Source: Streptosporangiaceae bacterium NEAU-GS5 (GTDB lineage Bacteria > Actinomycetota > Actinomycetes > Streptosporangiales > Streptosporangiaceae). From it: a DNA stretch of 64,000 nucleotides. Of the stretch, positions 35,972-44,620 are shown piece by piece; positions within the stretch are counted from its first letter, which is position 1, and every line of letters begins with the position of its first letter. The position numbers and the translations under genes are program-made. The stretch is from the NCBI GenBank assembly GCA_017592665.1, contig JAGFNW010000003.1:124001-188000 (forward strand), written 5' to 3'. The notes beneath the pieces are model-generated. The model was not told the origin of the DNA, ran no database searches, and saw only the letters and a program-made list of their open reading frames with translations.

Positions 35972-36103
35972 CGGGATCTCCTCCTTGCTTACATCGTCAT
36001 GGGACCACGACCCGCTTGTTGAAAACTTGACAAGCTCTTAAAGAACGTGTGCTCAAAGCGTTGTGTTCTGGGACGTGTTCCAAGAGTTCTGGAAGGTGGT
36101 GCG

Positions 36104-36922
36104 GTGCTCGGCGACGTGGTCGATCTGTTGCGGTGCCCGGTGTGCGGCTCGGGTCTCGCGCTGGCCGGCCAGGCTCGAATTGTGGCCTGCGCCGCGCGGC
36201 ACAGCTTCGATGTCGCCCGACAAGGATATGTGAGCCTGCTCACACAAGCCTCGCCCGGCACCGCCGACACGCCCGAGATGGTCGCGGCCCGATCGGCCTT
36301 CCTCGCCACCGGGGCATACCAGCCGCTGGCCTCCCACCTGGCCCGATCCTGTACGGCTGCCGCCGCCATCCTCGACGCCGGCGCGGGCACCGGCCACTAC
36401 CTCGCGCACGCGCTCCCCGGCGACGCCCGTGGGATCGCGCTCGACGTTTCCAAGCACGCGCTCAAGGTGGCCGCGAAGGCCCACCCGAGGATCGGCGCCG
36501 TCGTGGCCGACGTCTGGCGGCCGCTCCCGGTGCGCGACGAATCGGTCGACGTGGTGCTCAACGTGTTCGCCCCGCGGAACGCGGCCGAGTTCGCCCGGGT
36601 GCTGCGGCCCGGCGGGCGGCTGATCGTGGTCACCCCGGGTCCTGGGCATCTGCGCGAGCTGATCGAGCCGCTGGGCATGCTCACCGTCGACGAGGACAAG
36701 GAGCGGAGGGTCAACGAGTCGCTCGGGGGCGCGTTCGCGAGAGCCGTACGGGACGAGGTGACCCTGGAGCTGGACCTGGATCATGAGCAGGCCGCGGCCG
36801 TCGCGGGCATGGGGCCGAGCGCATGGCACACCGATCCCAGGAGCCTCATTGGCACGATGCCGGAGCGACTGCGGGTGACGGCGTCATTTCAGGTGTCGGA
36901 GTGGCTTCCGCGCAAACCCTGA
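36104..36922 (+). CDS. RlmA-type 23S rRNA guanine-N1 methyltransferase
   Basis: 272 residues. N-terminal zinc finger L-R-C-P-V-C-G-S-G-L followed by a third Cys and His (V-A-C-A-A-R-H-S-F-D), then the class I methyltransferase core D-A-G-A-G-T-G-H-Y and L-N-V-F-A-P-R-N. This is the RlmA(I/II) layout; RlmA(II) members include macrolide-resistance TlrB, so a self-protection role is possible but not shown. GTG 36104 has AAGGTGG upstream. The next gene starts 65 bp later on the same strand. Confidence 0.88.
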   Translation: MLGDVVDLLRCPVCGSGLALAGQARIVACAARHSFDVARQGYVSLLTQASPGTADTPEMVAARSAFLATGAYQPLASHLARSCTAAAAILDAGAGTGHYLAHALPGDARGIALDVSKHALKVAAKAHPRIGAVVADVWRPLPVRDESVDVVLNVFAPRNAAEFARVLRPGGRLIVVTPGPGHLRELIEPLGMLTVDEDKERRVNESLGGAFARAVRDEVTLELDLDHEQAAAVAGMGPSAWHTDPRSLIGTMPERLRVTASFQVSEWLPRKP

Positions 36923-36987: not shown

Positions 36988-38850
36988 ATGAAGGAACGCT
37001 GGCAGGCCAGGTTCCGGGCACCCCGCATGACTCTGCCCGTCTGGGCCCGCCAGGCGCCACACCACGCCATGTATCAATGCAACGTGTCGGGGACCTGGGA
37101 GTTCTACGCGTGGGATCGGCTCAGCGGCCTCAACCGGCAGGTCACTGATCGGCCGCAGGGCACCGCGCACGCCGCCATCGACCCGACCGGCCAGTGGATC
37201 TGGTGGTTCGCCGACGACGACAACGGGATGGGCGTGTGGATGCGCCAGCCCTTCCTGGGCGGCCCCGACGTTCCGGTCGTGATGGAGCCGACCTATCCGT
37301 GCGGGCTCGCCGTCTCCGCCACCGGACTCGCCGTGATGGGCATGTGCTGCCGCAACGGCTTCCAGATCGCGCTCGTCCGCGACAACGCCGAGCCCGAGAC
37401 GATCTATCAGCACACCGAGTACGCCGAGGCGGCCGACATCACGGCCGACGGCTCCCTGATCGCCATCAACCACAGCGAGCACGGCGACGCCCGCCACCCC
37501 GCCCTCCGGGTCCTGCGGGCCGACGGCACGGTCGTCGGCGACCTGGCCGACGGCCCGGGCCGCGGCGTGTCCGGGTTGAAGTTCGCCCCGCTGGACCGGC
37601 GGCTCCTGGTGCTGCACGAGCGGCGCGGCCGGTGCGAGCCCCTCGTGTGGGATCCGGTCACCGGCGAGCAGCGGGAGATCTGGCTGCGCGTCCCCGGCGA
37701 GATCACCGCCGACTGGTACGAGGACGGCCGCGCCCTGCTGATCACCCACAACAACCGGGGGCGGACCGAGCTGTTCCGCTACGACCTCGGCGGCGGCGGC
37801 CTGGCCCCCATCGAGACGCCGCACGGCGTCATCGAGTCGGCGGCCCCGCGGCCGGACGGCACGGTCGAGTTCTCCTGGTCAAGTGCCGCCCACCCGCCCG
37901 TGATCCGGTCGAGCACCGGCCAGGTCGTCATGACGCCCGGCCCGGCCGCGCCTCCGTCGGTGCCGGTCGAGGACATCGACGTCGACGGCCCGGGCGGGCG
38001 CATCCACGCGCTCATCTCGCGTCCCTCCGGCCGGACTCCGCCGTATCCGGCCGTGTTCCTGCTGCACGACGGGCCGAGCGAACAGGACGACGACTCGTTC
38101 CAGCCGCACGTGGCCGCGTGGGTGGACAGCGGCTACGCGGTGATCCGGGTCAACTACCGCGGCTCGGCCGGATACGGCTCCGACTGGCGCAACGCGCTCG
38201 CCGGGGACGTGGGCCACATCGAGCTCGCGGACGTGGCGGCCGTGCGGGACTGGACCGTCGAACGCGGCATCGCCGACCCGACCCAGCTGGTCCTCGCCGG
38301 CGCCGCATGGGGTGGCTTCCTCACGCTGCTCGGCCTCGGCACCCAGCCCAAGTCGTGGGCGGCCGGCATCGCCGCGGCCCCGGTCATCGACCACGCCGGC
38401 GCGTACGAGCGAGAGTCGGAGCGACTGCGGGCCCACCATCGGGCACTGCTCGGCGGCTCGCCGGGCGAGGTCCCCGAGCGCTACCGAGGCAGCTCGGCCA
38501 TCACGTACGCGGCGCTGGTCGAGGCCCCGCTGCTGGTCCTGGCCGGGGAGGACGACCCGCGCTGCCCCATGGGCCAGGTCGAGACGTACGTCGGAGTGCT
38601 CGGCGACCACTCGCACGAGATCTACCGCTATCCCGCCCAGACCGGACCGCTGGTCGTGGAGGAGCGGATCCGGCAGATGTCGGCCCAGCTCGACTTCGCC
38701 GACCGGCATCTGGCGAGGTCGCTCGCCGTGGCGACGGAACTCGCGCCGGAGGTCGCCGTGCGGCCGAAACGGGTGCGCGACGGCACGGCCGCCGAACGCG
38801 CGCGCAAGATCACTCTGGCGTCGGAACGGGCGCCCGAAGCACGAGAATAG
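36988..38850 (+). CDS. S9 (prolyl oligopeptidase-like) protein lacking catalytic Ser and His
   Basis: 620 residues: a seven-bladed propeller-like N-terminal domain of about 320 residues and a C-terminal alpha/beta-hydrolase domain with N-Y-R-G-S-A-G-Y-G-S-D-W, characteristic of S9 family. The nucleophile elbow, normally G-x-S-x-G-G, reads G438-A-A440-W-G-G, with Ala (GCA) in place of Ser. The catalytic Asp region A-G-E-D-D-P-R is kept, but the segment that should hold the His (usually D-A-G-H-G) reads P-A-Q-T-G-P-L. Two of three triad residues are therefore gone, so this looks like a pseudoenzyme, perhaps a binding protein. ATG 36988 with GGGAGGG upstream. Convergent with SpoIIE, 41-bp overlap. 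Confidence 0.85.
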   Translation: MKERWQARFRAPRMTLPVWARQAPHHAMYQCNVSGTWEFYAWDRLSGLNRQVTDRPQGTAHAAIDPTGQWIWWFADDDNGMGVWMRQPFLGGPDVPVVMEPTYPCGLAVSATGLAVMGMCCRNGFQIALVRDNAEPETIYQHTEYAEAADITADGSLIAINHSEHGDARHPALRVLRADGTVVGDLADGPGRGVSGLKFAPLDRRLLVLHERRGRCEPLVWDPVTGEQREIWLRVPGEITADWYEDGRALLITHNNRGRTELFRYDLGGGGLAPIETPHGVIESAAPRPDGTVEFSWSSAAHPPVIRSSTGQVVMTPGPAAPPSVPVEDIDVDGPGGRIHALISRPSGRTPPYPAVFLLHDGPSEQDDDSFQPHVAAWVDSGYAVIRVNYRGSAGYGSDWRNALAGDVGHIELADVAAVRDWTVERGIADPTQLVLAGAAWGGFLTLLGLGTQPKSWAAGIAAAPVIDHAGAYERESERLRAHHRALLGGSPGEVPERYRGSSAITYAALVEAPLLVLAGEDDPRCPMGQVETYVGVLGDHSHEIYRYPAQTGPLVVEERIRQMSAQLDFADRHLARSLAVATELAPEVAVRPKRVRDGTAAERARKITLASERAPEARE

Positions 38851-40354
38851 CCAGGTCGTCGGCGCTGGGCTCGGCCGCGAAATCCTGCACCCCGCGCTTG
38901 ACACGCTCGGCGACCGCGCGCGCCGACAGGTCGACGCACTCGGCCAGCAGCTTGGCCAGCCCGCTCTCGTCGTCGAGCAGCCGCGTGCCCGACCGCCGCT
39001 CGGTGACGCCGTCGGTCACGCCGAGCAGCACGTCGCCCGGCCCCAGGAAGACGTGCTCGGCCTCGAACGTGGCCTCGGGGAACACCCCGAGCAGCGACTG
39101 CGGCGAGGCCACCGTGTCGACCACCCCGCTCGGCCGCAGCCGCAGCGGCTCGGGATGGCCGGCCGACACGAGCCGGACGTCGAGGCCTCCCCTGACCCGG
39201 GTGATCTCTCCGTGCAGGAGGGTGAGGAACCTGGCCCGCTCGCCTTCCTCCAGGATCGCCTGATTGAGCCGGGACACGACCGCGGCCACGCCGTAACCCT
39301 CGCGGGCCAGCAGGCGGAGCGCGTGCCGTGCCAGGCCGGTGACGGCGGCGGCCTCGGGGCCGGTGCCGCACACGTCGCCGATGGCGAACCGGTAGACGCC
39401 GTCGGCGACCGGGAACAGGTCGTAGAAGTCGCCGCCGACCTCGTTGGTCTCTCCGGCCGGCTCATAGATCACGTGGTAGTCGAGGCCGGGAGTGATCGGG
39501 TCGTCCGGCGGGAGCAGGCTGCGCTGCAGGGCCCGGTTGGCGGCCTCCTGCTGGGCGTACAAGCGGGCGTTGTCGAGGGCGAGCGCCGCGCGGCGGCTGA
39601 GATCCTCGGCCAGCTGCAGCGCTTCGTCGGGGAACCGGTCGTGGCGACCGAGGCACATGACGCCGAGCCGCCGCCCACGCGCGGTCAGCGGGAACACCAA
39701 GGCCTGCCAGTCGCCGGCGGCGAGGACGGCCGGGTCGTCGCCGCCCGGGATCGTCACGTCGGCAAGCTGGTCACGCAGCGTGTCGATCTGGGTCTCGTCG
39801 GCGTGCCACAGATAGTCGGGGCGGAGCGGGCCCATGTCGCCGTGCTCGGCCGTGTAGACGGCGCACCAGGCGGCCAGGCGGGGCACCACGATCTGGGCGA
39901 TGATCGCGGGGACCATGCCCGGATTGAGTGTGCCGGCCAGCAGGTCGCTGGCGTCGGCGAGGAAGCCCAGCCAGCTCGGGGAGCCGGCCCGGCCCCCGGT
40001 CCACTCGTCGGCCGTGTCGCTGACGCCACCCGGTAGATCGATGCGCGCCCATAGAGTGCGGGTGGACCCGGTAAAGGTAACCCCCCATGAAGACGCATTT
40101 ACGGGCTTGACCGGGGAATGGCCTTTCTCGCGGACCTCGATCTGAACGGAGTCGCCGTGATGCGCCCACAGCACTTCGAACGCACCGTCGCCCGTGTCGG
40201 CCACGAGCTCGGCGGCCAGCCGTTCGGCCTCGGCCGCGACGGACATGGCGGCCCACGCGGTCAGCACCTCCCGGGTGAACCGCGTCGCCGCTGGAACGGC
40301 CGTGCTGCCCGGCGCGAAGGACGCGGCAAGCACGGCACGTGGGATAGAAACCAC
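38810..40354 (-). CDS. SpoIIE phosphatase with GAF and degenerate RsbW-like domain
   Basis: 514 residues. Residues about 1-110 resemble the anti-sigma kinase (HATPase_c_2) fold, F-T-R-E-V-L-T-A-W then L-A-A-E-L-V-A-D-T, but the Mg-binding Asn of the N-box is missing (A-D in place of T-N), so ATPase activity is doubtful. A GAF domain follows (about 140-290), then a PP2C/SpoIIE domain with V-G-G-D-F-Y-D-L-F, G-D-V-C-G-T-G-P-E-A and S-A-G-H-P. It would dephosphorylate an anti-sigma antagonist in stress-sigma partner switching. GTG 40354 is preferred (GGAG upstream). Divergent from the poly-HAMP kinase across 105 bp. Confidence 0.9.
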   Translation of the reverse strand: MVSIPRAVLAASFAPGSTAVPAATRFTREVLTAWAAMSVAAEAERLAAELVADTGDGAFEVLWAHHGDSVQIEVREKGHSPVKPVNASSWGVTFTGSTRTLWARIDLPGGVSDTADEWTGGRAGSPSWLGFLADASDLLAGTLNPGMVPAIIAQIVVPRLAAWCAVYTAEHGDMGPLRPDYLWHADETQIDTLRDQLADVTIPGGDDPAVLAAGDWQALVFPLTARGRRLGVMCLGRHDRFPDEALQLAEDLSRRAALALDNARLYAQQEAANRALQRSLLPPDDPITPGLDYHVIYEPAGETNEVGGDFYDLFPVADGVYRFAIGDVCGTGPEAAAVTGLARHALRLLAREGYGVAAVVSRLNQAILEEGERARFLTLLHGEITRVRGGLDVRLVSAGHPEPLRLRPSGVVDTVASPQSLLGVFPEATFEAEHVFLGPGDVLLGVTDGVTERRSGTRLLDDESGLAKLLAECVDLSARAVAERVKRGVQDFAAEPSADDLAILVLRAPVPTPE

Positions 40355-40459
40355 TGTCTCCGTGCTTACCACACTTGTCCTTGACTTGTGGTCAATCAAG
40401 CAGGCACACGCAGCGACCCGGCGTGACAGACTGACACCAGTCGCGGTGAAGGAGGGCCC

Positions 40460-43400
40460 ATGTCGTCCAAAGCGGCACCCGCAGCCGAGAGATGTTACGA
40501 AGAGTCCGAGCTCGTCGTCCTTCGTGACACCTTGCGCGCGTGGCGCGACGGCGAGTTCCGGCGGCGTATCCCGCACGCGCCTGACGGCATCGCGGCCGAG
40601 ATCCGGCTTCTGCTCAACGAATTGGCCGATCGGCGCGAGCATCTGGCCAATGAGCTGGCCCGGGTGCGGCGTGAGGTGGTCCAGGAAGGGCGGTTCGGCG
40701 AGCGCCTGACCCCCGGGCCTGGCGTCGGGCAGTGGGCCGAGAGCGTCGAGTCGGTCAACGACCTGATCGAAGCGCTGGTCAGCCCGGTCAGCGGGGCCGC
40801 CGACGTGATCGACGCGGTGGCCAAGGGCGATCTTTCGCAGCGCATCGACATCGAGCGTGGCGCGCGGGGCGAGGTGCGCCGGCTCGGCAAGGCGATCAAC
40901 GGCATGGTCGACCAGTTGTCCCAGTTCACCTCGGAGGTGACCCGGGTGACCCGGGAGGCGGGCACCGAGGGCAAGCTGGGCGGCCGCGCCAACATCCACG
41001 GGATGTCGGGCTCCTGGCGTGACCTCACCGAGGCCGTCAACACGATGTCGAGCCGCGTCTCGGCGCAGGTGCGCGACATCGCCGTGGTGACCACCGCGGT
41101 CGCGAAGGGCGACCTGTCGCGGAAGGTCACCGTCGACGCGGTCGGCGAGATGTTCGAGCTGAAGAACACTGTCAACACCATGGTCGACCAGCTTTCGGCG
41201 TTCGCGGGCGAGGTGACCCGGGTGGCCCGCGAGGTCGGCACCGAGGGCCAGCTCGGCGGCCAGGCCCAGGTCCGGGGCATCTCCGGGGTCTGGGAAGACC
41301 TCACCGACAACGTCAACTTCATGGCCAACAACCTGACCTCACAGGTCCGCAGCATCGCGACCGTGGCCACCGCGGTCGCACAGGGCAACCTGACCAAAAA
41401 GATCACCGTCGACGCCCAGGGCGAGATCCTGCAGCTCAAGGACACCATGAACACCATGGTCGACCAGCTGTCGAGCTTCGCCGACGAGGTCACCCGCGTC
41501 GCCCGCGAGGTCGGCACCGAAGGCCAGCTGGGCGGCCGCGCCGAGGTGCGGGGCGTGTCCGGGGTCTGGAAAGACCTCACCGACAACGTCAACTCGATGG
41601 CCAACAACCTGACCTACCAGGTCCGCAACATCGCCCAGGTGACCACCGCGGTCGCCAACGGCGACCTGACCCGCAAGATCGACGTGGACGCCCAGGGCGA
41701 GATCCTGGAGCTCAAGTCGACCATGAACACGATGGTCGACCAGCTGTCCGCGTTCGCCTCCGAGGTCACCCGCGTCGCCCGCGAGGTCGGCACCGAAGGC
41801 CGCCTCGGCGGCCAGGCCCAGGTCCGCGGCGTCTCCGGCGTCTGGAAAGACCTCACCGACAACGTCAACTTCATGGCCAACAACCTGACCTCGCAGGTGC
41901 GCCAGATCGCCGCGGTCTCCACCGCGGTCGCACAGGGCAACCTCTCCAAGAAGATCACCGTCGATGCCCAGGGCGAGATCCTGCAGCTCAAGGACACCAT
42001 GAACACGATGGTCGACCAGCTGTCGTCCTTCGGCTCCGAGGTCACCCGCGTGGCCCGCGAGGTCGGCACCGAGGGCCGCCTCGGCGGCCAGGCCCGCGTG
42101 CCCGGCGTCTCCGGCGTCTGGAAAGACCTCACCGACAACGTCAACTCGATGGCGACCAACCTGACCTACCAGGTCCGCAACATCGGCGAGGTGACCACCG
42201 CGGTCGCCAACGGCGACCTGACCCGCAAGATCGACGTGGACGCCCAGGGCGAGATCCTGGTCCTGAAGACCACCATCAACACGATGGTCGACCAGCTGTC
42301 GTCGTTCGCCTCCGAGGTCACCCGCGTCGCCCGCGAGGTCGGCTCGGAAGGCCAGCTCGGCGGCCAGGCCCGCGTCGAAGGCGTCGAAGGCACCTGGAAG
42401 CGGCTCACCGAGAGCGTCAACGAGCTCGCCGGAAACCTGACCACCCAGGTCCGCGCGATCGCCGAGGTGACGAGCGCGGTCGCCCGAGGCGACCTGACCC
42501 GGTCGATCACCGTCGAGGCCCCGGGCGAGCTGGCCCAGCTCAAGGACAACATCAACACGATGGTGTCCACGCTCCGCGCCACCACCAAGACCAACCAGGA
42601 GCAAGACTGGCTCAAGTCCAACCTGGCCCGCATCTCCCGGCTCATGCAGGGCCACCGCGACCTGATGGAGGTCGCGCGGCTCATCATGAGCGAGCTGACC
42701 CCGCTGGTGTCGGCCAGCTACGGCGCCTGCTATCTGGTCGACGACGGCGGGCTGACGCTCATCGCCGGCTACGGCATCCAGCCGGGCACCGGCCCGCGTC
42801 AGGGGTTCTCGCTCGGCGAGGGCATCGTCGGCCAGGCCGCGCTCGAGGCCAAGCAGATCCTCCTCGATCAGGTGCCCGCCGAGGGGATCATCGTCGAGAC
42901 CGGGCTCAGCCGCGCCACCCCCGCGCAGATCGTCGTGCTGCCGATCCTCTTTGAGAACCAGGTCCTCGGCGTGCTGGAGCTGGCCTCGTTCGCCAACTTC
43001 AGCGAGGTGCACAAGGCGTTCCTGACCCAGCTGGTGGAGACCATCGGGGTCACCATCAACACGATCATCGCCAACTCCCGGACCGAGGATCTGCTGAAGG
43101 AGTCCCAGCGGCTGGCCATCGAGCTGCAGGAGCGCTCCGACGAGCTGCAACGCCAGCAGGAGGAGCTGCGCCGATCCAACGCCGAGCTGGAGGACAAGGC
43201 GGCCCTGCTGGCCAAGCAGAACCGGGCCATCGAGATCCAGAACTTCCAGATCGAGCAGGCCCGCCGGACCCTGGAGGAGCGCGCCGAGCAGCTGGCGGTC
43301 TCCAGCCGCTACAAGTCCGAGTTCGTCGCCAACATGTCGCACGAGCTGCGCACCCCGCTCAACAGCGTGCTCGTGCTGGCCAAGCTGCTGTCGGAGAACT

Positions 43401-44620
43401 CCGAGGGAAACCTGACCCTGCAGCAGGTCGAGTTCGCCCGGACCATCCACGACGCCGGGTCGGCCCTGCTCCAGCTGATCAACGACATCCTCGACCTGTC
43501 GAAGGTCGAGGCCGGCCGGATGGACATCCACCCGCAGCAGCTGTCGCTGCCGAAGCTGGTCGACTATATGGAGGCCACGTTCGCCCCGGTGGCGCAGGAC
43601 AAGGGGCTGTCGTTCACGGTCGAGGTCGACCCGGCCGTGCCGAGCGAGCTGCGCACCGACGAGCAGCGGCTGCAGCAGGTGCTGCGCAATCTGCTGTCCA
43701 ACGCCGTCAAGTTCACGCCGAAGGGCGACGTGCGGCTGAGGGTCAGCCACGCGCCGGCCGACGTTCCGTACGTCGACGAGACCTTGCGGCTGTCGGACAA
43801 CATCCTCGCGTTCGCGGTCATCGACACCGGCATCGGCATCGCGCCCGACAAGCTGGAGGTCATCTTCGAGGCCTTCCGGCAGGCCGACGGGACCACGAGC
43901 CGCAAATACGGCGGCACCGGGCTCGGGCTGTCGATCTGCCGCGAGATCGCCCGGCTGCTCGGCGGCGAGATCCACGTGGACAGCGAGCCTGGGGCGGGCA
44001 GCACGTTCACGCTCTACCTGCCCGTGGCGTACACAGGGCCGCTGGCCGCCCGCGACGGCGGGGCGCTGGCGGGCGGCGCGGGCATGGGGCGGCTGTCCCA
44101 GCTGACCGACCTCGTGACGGCCGAGGCGCTGCCGGAGATCGCGGCTCCGACCGACCTGCCCATGCCCCATCTCAACATGAGCGAGCAGAACGGCCACGAC
44201 TGGCAGGGCGAAGACCCGCTCAACAACGCCAAGATCCTTATAGTGGACGACGACATCCGCAACGTGTTCGCGTTGACCAGCGTGCTTGAACGGCATGGCG
44301 CCGTGGTCGTCTACGCCGAAAACGGGCGCGAAGGGATCGAGCAGCTGGAAAGGAACGAGGACGTGGCCCTCGTCCTGATGGACATCATGATGCCGGAGAT
44401 GGACGGCTGGGCGACCACGTCGGCCATCCGCCGGATGCCGCAGTTCGCCGAGCTGCCGATCATCGCGCTGACGGCGAAGGTGATGCGCGGCGACCGGGAG
44501 AAGAGCATCGCCTCCGGCGCGTCCGACTACGTGCCGAAGCCGGTCGACGTCGACCGGCTCCTCGAGCGGCTGCGCGGCTGGCTGATCCGCAGCCGCGTTC
44601 CTGGGGGCGAGGATGCCTGA
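40460..44620 (+). CDS. Cytosolic poly-HAMP hybrid histidine kinase
   Basis: 1386 residues with no membrane helix. After an about 130-residue helical N-terminus come six 92-residue units plus a partial seventh, each with HAMP-like helices (G-E-I-L[14 protein letters not shown]). A GAF domain (about 730-870), a coiled coil, HisKA with H961 in M-S-H-E-L-R-T-P-L, HATPase with N-A-V-K-F-T and G-G-T-G-L-G-L-S, and a C-terminal receiver with Asp1308 in L-M-D-I-M-M-P follow. Layout matches group III kinases such as fungal osmosensing Nik1. GGAGGG upstream of ATG. The response regulator gene overlaps its end by 8 bp. The stimulus is probably osmotic, redox or cytoplasmic; inference. Confidence 0.95.
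40868..42523 (+). repeat. Six tandem 276-bp HAMP-pair units
   Basis: Units begin at 40868, 41144, 41420, 41696, 41972 and 42248, exactly 276 bp apart, each coding 92 residues of two HAMP-like helices pairs. Units 2-5 are closest to each other at the DNA level, and units alternate in type (3 and 5 share one variant, 2 and 4 another). The first and last are most diverged, so expansion probably happened in the centre. Confidence 0.95.

Follow-up and report, generated by a model that had tools for sequence, protein, structure and literature searches.

Inactive proteins with the fold of peptidase family S9 have been described before, close parallels here being DPP6 (DPPX) and DPP10 (DPPY), in which the catalytic Ser is replaced, peptidase activity is missing and the protein is retained for binding (PMC4873792, PMC4350108). 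The DPP10 of the fly is bifunctional in that it binds Kv4 and also cleaves peptides (PMC4873792), from which it follows that a binding role can coexist with catalysis before catalysis is lost. In bacteria, pseudo-orthocaspases display a peptidase fold with conserved loss of the catalytic residues (PMC6426788). In the present study a gene of the S9 type was analyzed within a stretch of 64,000 nucleotides of Streptosporangiaceae bacterium NEAU-GS5, hereafter called the window, and compared with these systems. Unlike the window protein, DPP6 and DPP10 belong to the DPP4 branch and are Kv4-binding membrane proteins of animals, and no channel partner is to be expected here; pseudo-orthocaspases are cysteine peptidases forming distinct subfamilies, whereas the losses reported below recur inside one ortholog group.

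Among solved structures the closest relatives of the window protein are acylaminoacyl peptidases, and its best match in sequence as well as in structure is the enzyme from Aeropyrum pernix (apAPH, S9; PDB 1ve6, 2hu8), with which it shares the combination of propeller and alpha/beta hydrolase (TM 0.79–0.85). However, apAPH is active and carries Ser-Asp-His, while the window protein, at about 21% identity, presents Ala440, Asp523 and Thr552. Active actinomycete orthologs situated at the ask-asd locus are about 48–60% identical to the window protein over their full length, but differ from it in possessing an intact Ser-Asp-His triad (S-D-H) and other neighbouring genes. No paper dealing with S9 proteins of actinomycetes that have lost catalysis was found in a literature search, and in a survey of prokaryotic prolyl oligopeptidases (POP) the words ‘inactive’, ‘lack’ and ‘pseudo’ are absent (PMC4522959). 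An S9 pseudoenzyme is hence a known kind of protein; what is new is its roughly tenfold parallel origin by loss in one bacterial ortholog group.

Pseudoenzymes have usually been studied as single old duplications. The group presented here is mostly single-copy; about ten independent losses have taken place among soil actinomycetes that are closely related and in many cases cultured, and active sister species can serve as controls. Such a series lets one test whether a non-catalytic function preceded the loss, and what an S9 propeller-hydrolase that does not cut is doing.

The gene and its predicted protein

The features of the locus are compiled in Table 1. The start of the S9 gene is favoured by the family alignment, in which the beginning ...EERWQARF is conserved; longer in-frame starts are available, up to 36823. 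The reading frame is intact, with a GC3 of 0.93, and matches Pfam Peptidase_S9 (PF00326), the alpha/beta hydrolase domain of the prolyl-oligopeptidase type, with an E-value of 4.5e-32.

Table 1. Features of the S9 locus in the window, with positions counted from its first nucleotide.
Feature	Position	Strand	Basis and remarks
RlmA/TlrB-type 23S rRNA guanine methyltransferase	36047..36922	+	Domain match; conserved upstream neighbour
Predicted S9 (acylaminoacyl-peptidase-type) pseudoenzyme, 620 aa	36988..38850	+	ORF, Pfam match, AlphaFold2/Foldseek
Beta-propeller domain, residues 2 to about 330	36991..37977	+	AlphaFold2 model; retains 97% of sites invariant in active orthologs
Gly361Asp in HGGP oxyanion motif (HDGP)	38068..38070	+	Ortholog alignment
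Ala440 (codon GCA) at catalytic Ser position	38305..38307	+	Ortholog alignment; Ser of S9 motif GxSxGG absent
Asn522Asp, followed by conserved triad Asp523	38551..38556	+	Ortholog alignment; catalytic Asp of S9 present
Thr552 (codon ACC) at catalytic His position	38641..38643	+	Ortholog alignment; catalytic His of S9 absent
C-terminal extension, 43 residues	38719..38847	+	Mostly disordered in model; other orthologs measured are without it
GAF-SpoIIE (PP2C-type) phosphatase	38810..40999	-	Coordinates are those of the longest ORF, which probably contains the true start; conserved neighbour
HAMP(x7)-GAF-HisKA-ATPase-receiver hybrid histidine kinase (HK)	40460..44620	+	Domain matches; conserved neighbour

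An AlphaFold2 model, computed with an alignment of 42 orthologs, displays the full S9 fold at a mean pLDDT of 86, and in Foldseek it matches S9 enzymes with a TM of about 0.8, an N-terminal beta-propeller being fused to the hydrolase. An initial annotation, made from the nucleotide sequence, had held that fold, propeller and Asp region were intact, and this is borne out by the model, by the retention of the propeller (Table 1) and by the presence of Asp523. Values of pLDDT below 50 are confined to residues 552–555, the old His loop, and to the C-terminal tail 585–620. Low confidence in the His loop was considered as a sign of loss and set aside as weak, since an active ortholog scores low there as well (block mean 67 vs 65). 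The C-terminal extension, which probably arose by loss of the stop codon or by a late frameshift, overlaps the 3' end of the SpoIIE gene in antisense orientation. By eye, no hydrophobic N-terminal segment was seen in the window protein.

Changes in the catalytic site

Compared to active orthologs, HGGP has become HDGP, GxSWGG reads GAAWGG, ENDPRCP reads EDDPRCP and DAGHGSL reads PAQTGPL. The replacement of the catalytic Ser by Ala440 and the loss of the His motif had already been recognized in the initial annotation and are confirmed, Thr552 being the residue aligned to the His; Gly361Asp and Asn522Asp are two active-site changes beyond those noted there. Active orthologs share 150 invariant sites, and at only seven of these does the window protein differ, two of the three triad residues among them (hypergeometric P 0.0055), which argues that the loss was focused on the catalytic site; four of the seven lie at or beside it. 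Invariant sites outside the motifs are kept at 122 of 125 positions. Judged by its sequence, the gene is that of a pseudoenzyme, orthologous to enzymes with intact active sites yet devoid of essential catalytic residues.

Triad loss among orthologs

Of 297 genomes sampled from this GTDB family, 208 yielded orthologs, and 145 sequences were read from these. The S-D-H triad is complete in 86 of them (‘active’) and incomplete in the other 59 (‘dead’). The initial annotation had proposed an alignment of orthologs, with intact triads elsewhere and an isolated mutant in the window as the outcome that would speak against it. Orthologs with intact triads do exist, but the window copy is not isolated, and with 59 dead sequences an isolated mutant or a sequencing error was rejected as an explanation.

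In genus g4, which is probably Nonomuraea, the triad is dead in all 36 species and likewise in five of five species read later, and in Microbispora (g65) in 14 of 15. Scattered losses accompany these two genera. Ser and His positions are occupied by Ala and Pro in g10, by Ala and Asn in g13 and by Ala and Thr in the window, and the Ser position alone was recorded as Ala in one species of g5, Phe or Trp in g57, Leu in one Microtetraspora and Thr in Rhizohabitans (g62). Altogether the substitutes of the Ser vary by lineage among A, G, L, F, W, E and T.

On a tree of 90 rows, calculated with the motif regions left out, the label switches between active and dead at least ten times; g10 and g13 sit in an unresolved fork, so that a cautious count of changes is nine. 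The window sequence branches beside a mostly active clade, with one loss in its lineage. Outside the family, S-D-H is present in each ortholog that was read from this class, about 20 of which belong to a single genus, presumably Streptomyces; the triad is likewise complete in the family’s own members at the ask-asd locus, and the direction of change is therefore loss. Neither in the window genome nor in five other genomes checked was an active second ortholog found; compensation by such a copy in dead genomes was rejected, the second matches being paralogs of 32–33% identity or contig fragments.

Genomic environment and apparent relocation

In the outer genera of the family, as in the remainder of the class, the active ortholog is found facing asd and ask, with recR and dnaX often close by. 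Core Streptosporangiaceae keep the order methyltransferase, S9, SpoIIE (minus strand) and HK, for active and dead S9 genes alike. In the window genome asd-ask lies on another contig (L282:6935-11340) and has kept its TetR neighbour, which is 65–68% identical to the TetR separating S9 from asd in relatives, while S9 is absent. This points to a relocation of the gene, which on comparison of these loci appears to have moved from the ancestral ask-asd locus to the methyltransferase/SpoIIE/HK locus. Every loss found falls in the clade at the new locus; relocation was apparently a single event without replicates, so the cause of the losses cannot be inferred from the locus.

The gap between S9 and the methyltransferase gene mostly measures 65–260 bp, and co-transcription of the two is possible. 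The methyltransferase resembles macrolide self-resistance enzymes (ChrB, MyrA), with a score under the curated cut-offs. The GAF-SpoIIE phosphatase and the seven-HAMP hybrid kinase (38810–44620) form a divergent pair, which recalls OsaC and OsaA of Streptomyces by domain make-up only.

Retention of the gene order across the core Streptosporangiaceae, and the restriction of all losses found to the clade with SpoIIE/HK neighbours, might suggest a regulatory role of the S9 protein in this locus, as a peptide-binding input to stress signalling, the more so as OsaA and OsaC are stress regulators in Streptomyces (PMC10117811) and the pair resembles them, as judged by domain make-up only. However, active copies have the same arrangement, the SpoIIE gene is convergent with S9 (overlapping its 3' end by 41 bp) and not co-transcribed with it, and a relocation that apparently took place once leaves a correlation without replicates. 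Such a role is consequently regarded as unlikely, and the peptide-binding sensor tied to the signalling genes, as envisaged in the initial annotation, could not be established.

Selection on copies without a full triad

Codon models returned an omega of 0.057 for dead copies of g4 (36 species) and of 0.077 for those of Microbispora (13 dead), compared to 0.063, 0.048 and 0.047 in three active genera. Dead orthologs have long open frames, and outside the catalytic motifs dead lineages retain 94–99% of the sites invariant in active orthologs; constraint on the hydrolase domain of g4 equals that seen in active genera. When amino-acid diversity in the catalytic windows is divided by that of the remaining hydrolase domain, the ratio is 1.18 for g4 and 2.70 for Microbispora, whereas eight active genera range from 0 to 0.74. 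A conserved body together with diversity raised in the catalytic windows of dead clades indicates that constraint was lifted from the catalytic site alone.

For the window lineage, which is a single species with saturated pairwise dS, pairwise codon omega is uninformative. Its S9 rate relative to flanking genes (ratio 1.38) points to mild acceleration inside the spread of active copies. From these sequence comparisons it is concluded that the protein has been kept by selection after triad loss in g4 and Microbispora, and, on the indirect grounds of its intact frame, its GC3 and its retained non-motif sites, probably in the window species. The claim of a working non-catalytic protein in the initial annotation is thereby well supported, considering the recurrence in about ten lineages, purifying selection in two dead genera and relaxation of the catalytic windows only.

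D468C has become fixed in g4, where all 41 species (L151-L186, L266-L270) carry it, while Asp468 is present in all active copies. By alignment to A. pernix APH, position 468 is taken to adjoin the S1-pocket region in the hydrolase domain. A fixed Cys at this place, and the conservative nature of the Thr in g62, would fit proteins that are still enzymes by way of other residues, the site having been rewired (Cys468 in g4, Thr440 in Rhizohabitans), or that perform a different reaction. Against this stand the variety of substitutes from one lineage to another (A, G, L, F, W, E, T), the changed His and oxyanion positions, and the window protein, which lacks Cys468 and has no nucleophile at 440 either; continued catalysis appears slightly less probable still than an input to SpoIIE/HK signalling.

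Least probable is ongoing pseudogenisation, in which selection would have ceased and the triad merely been first to go: recurrent losses, the joint disappearance of several active-site residues, the slight acceleration of the window copy and its C-terminal run-on would agree with it, but omega of about 0.06–0.08 across whole genera, long open frames, the invariant sites kept outside the motifs and a hydrolase domain constrained in g4 as in active genera largely refute it for g4 and Microbispora. Plain decay was accordingly rejected for the dead genera on omega and invariant-site retention.

Proposed function and origin

The gene is best explained as a maintained pseudoenzyme of the S9 (acylaminoacyl-peptidase) fold that arose repeatedly and most likely acts by binding or as a scaffold, without catalysis, a reading to which we assign a probability of about 0.72. 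Its ancestor would have been an active serine peptidase, whose gene adjoins ask-asd in most other actinomycetes sampled. At the new locus in the core Streptosporangiaceae catalysis would have become dispensable while the folded body was still required, and the triad would then have disappeared on about ten independent occasions, one of them in the window lineage. The protein may work by binding, with propeller and interdomain architecture as a scaffold for a ligand or partner, and a peptide or protein might be captured or chaperoned without being cleaved. A binding role beside catalysis was probably present in the ancestor already. Counted against this explanation of a maintained binding protein were the restriction of the window lineage to a single species, the rate of the window copy compared to its flanking genes and the new disordered C-terminal tail.

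A common retained function is unlikely to make use of the old catalytic pocket, since the residue at the Ser position now ranges from Gly to Trp, some lineages having Phe, Trp, Leu or Glu there; the propeller or an oligomer interface would be a likelier binding site.

More tentatively, and with odds somewhat below even, it could be assumed that an unrecognised non-catalytic function was the primary one in the active ancestor of this widespread actinomycete S9 protein already, and that relocation was followed by about ten parallel losses of peptidase activity, with the pocket remodelled in at least one genus (Cys468, g4). If true, the family would offer a natural replicated series of conversions from bifunctional protein to pseudoenzyme. 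Annotations as ‘S9 peptidase’ in genomes of g4 and Microbispora are probably wrong with regard to activity.
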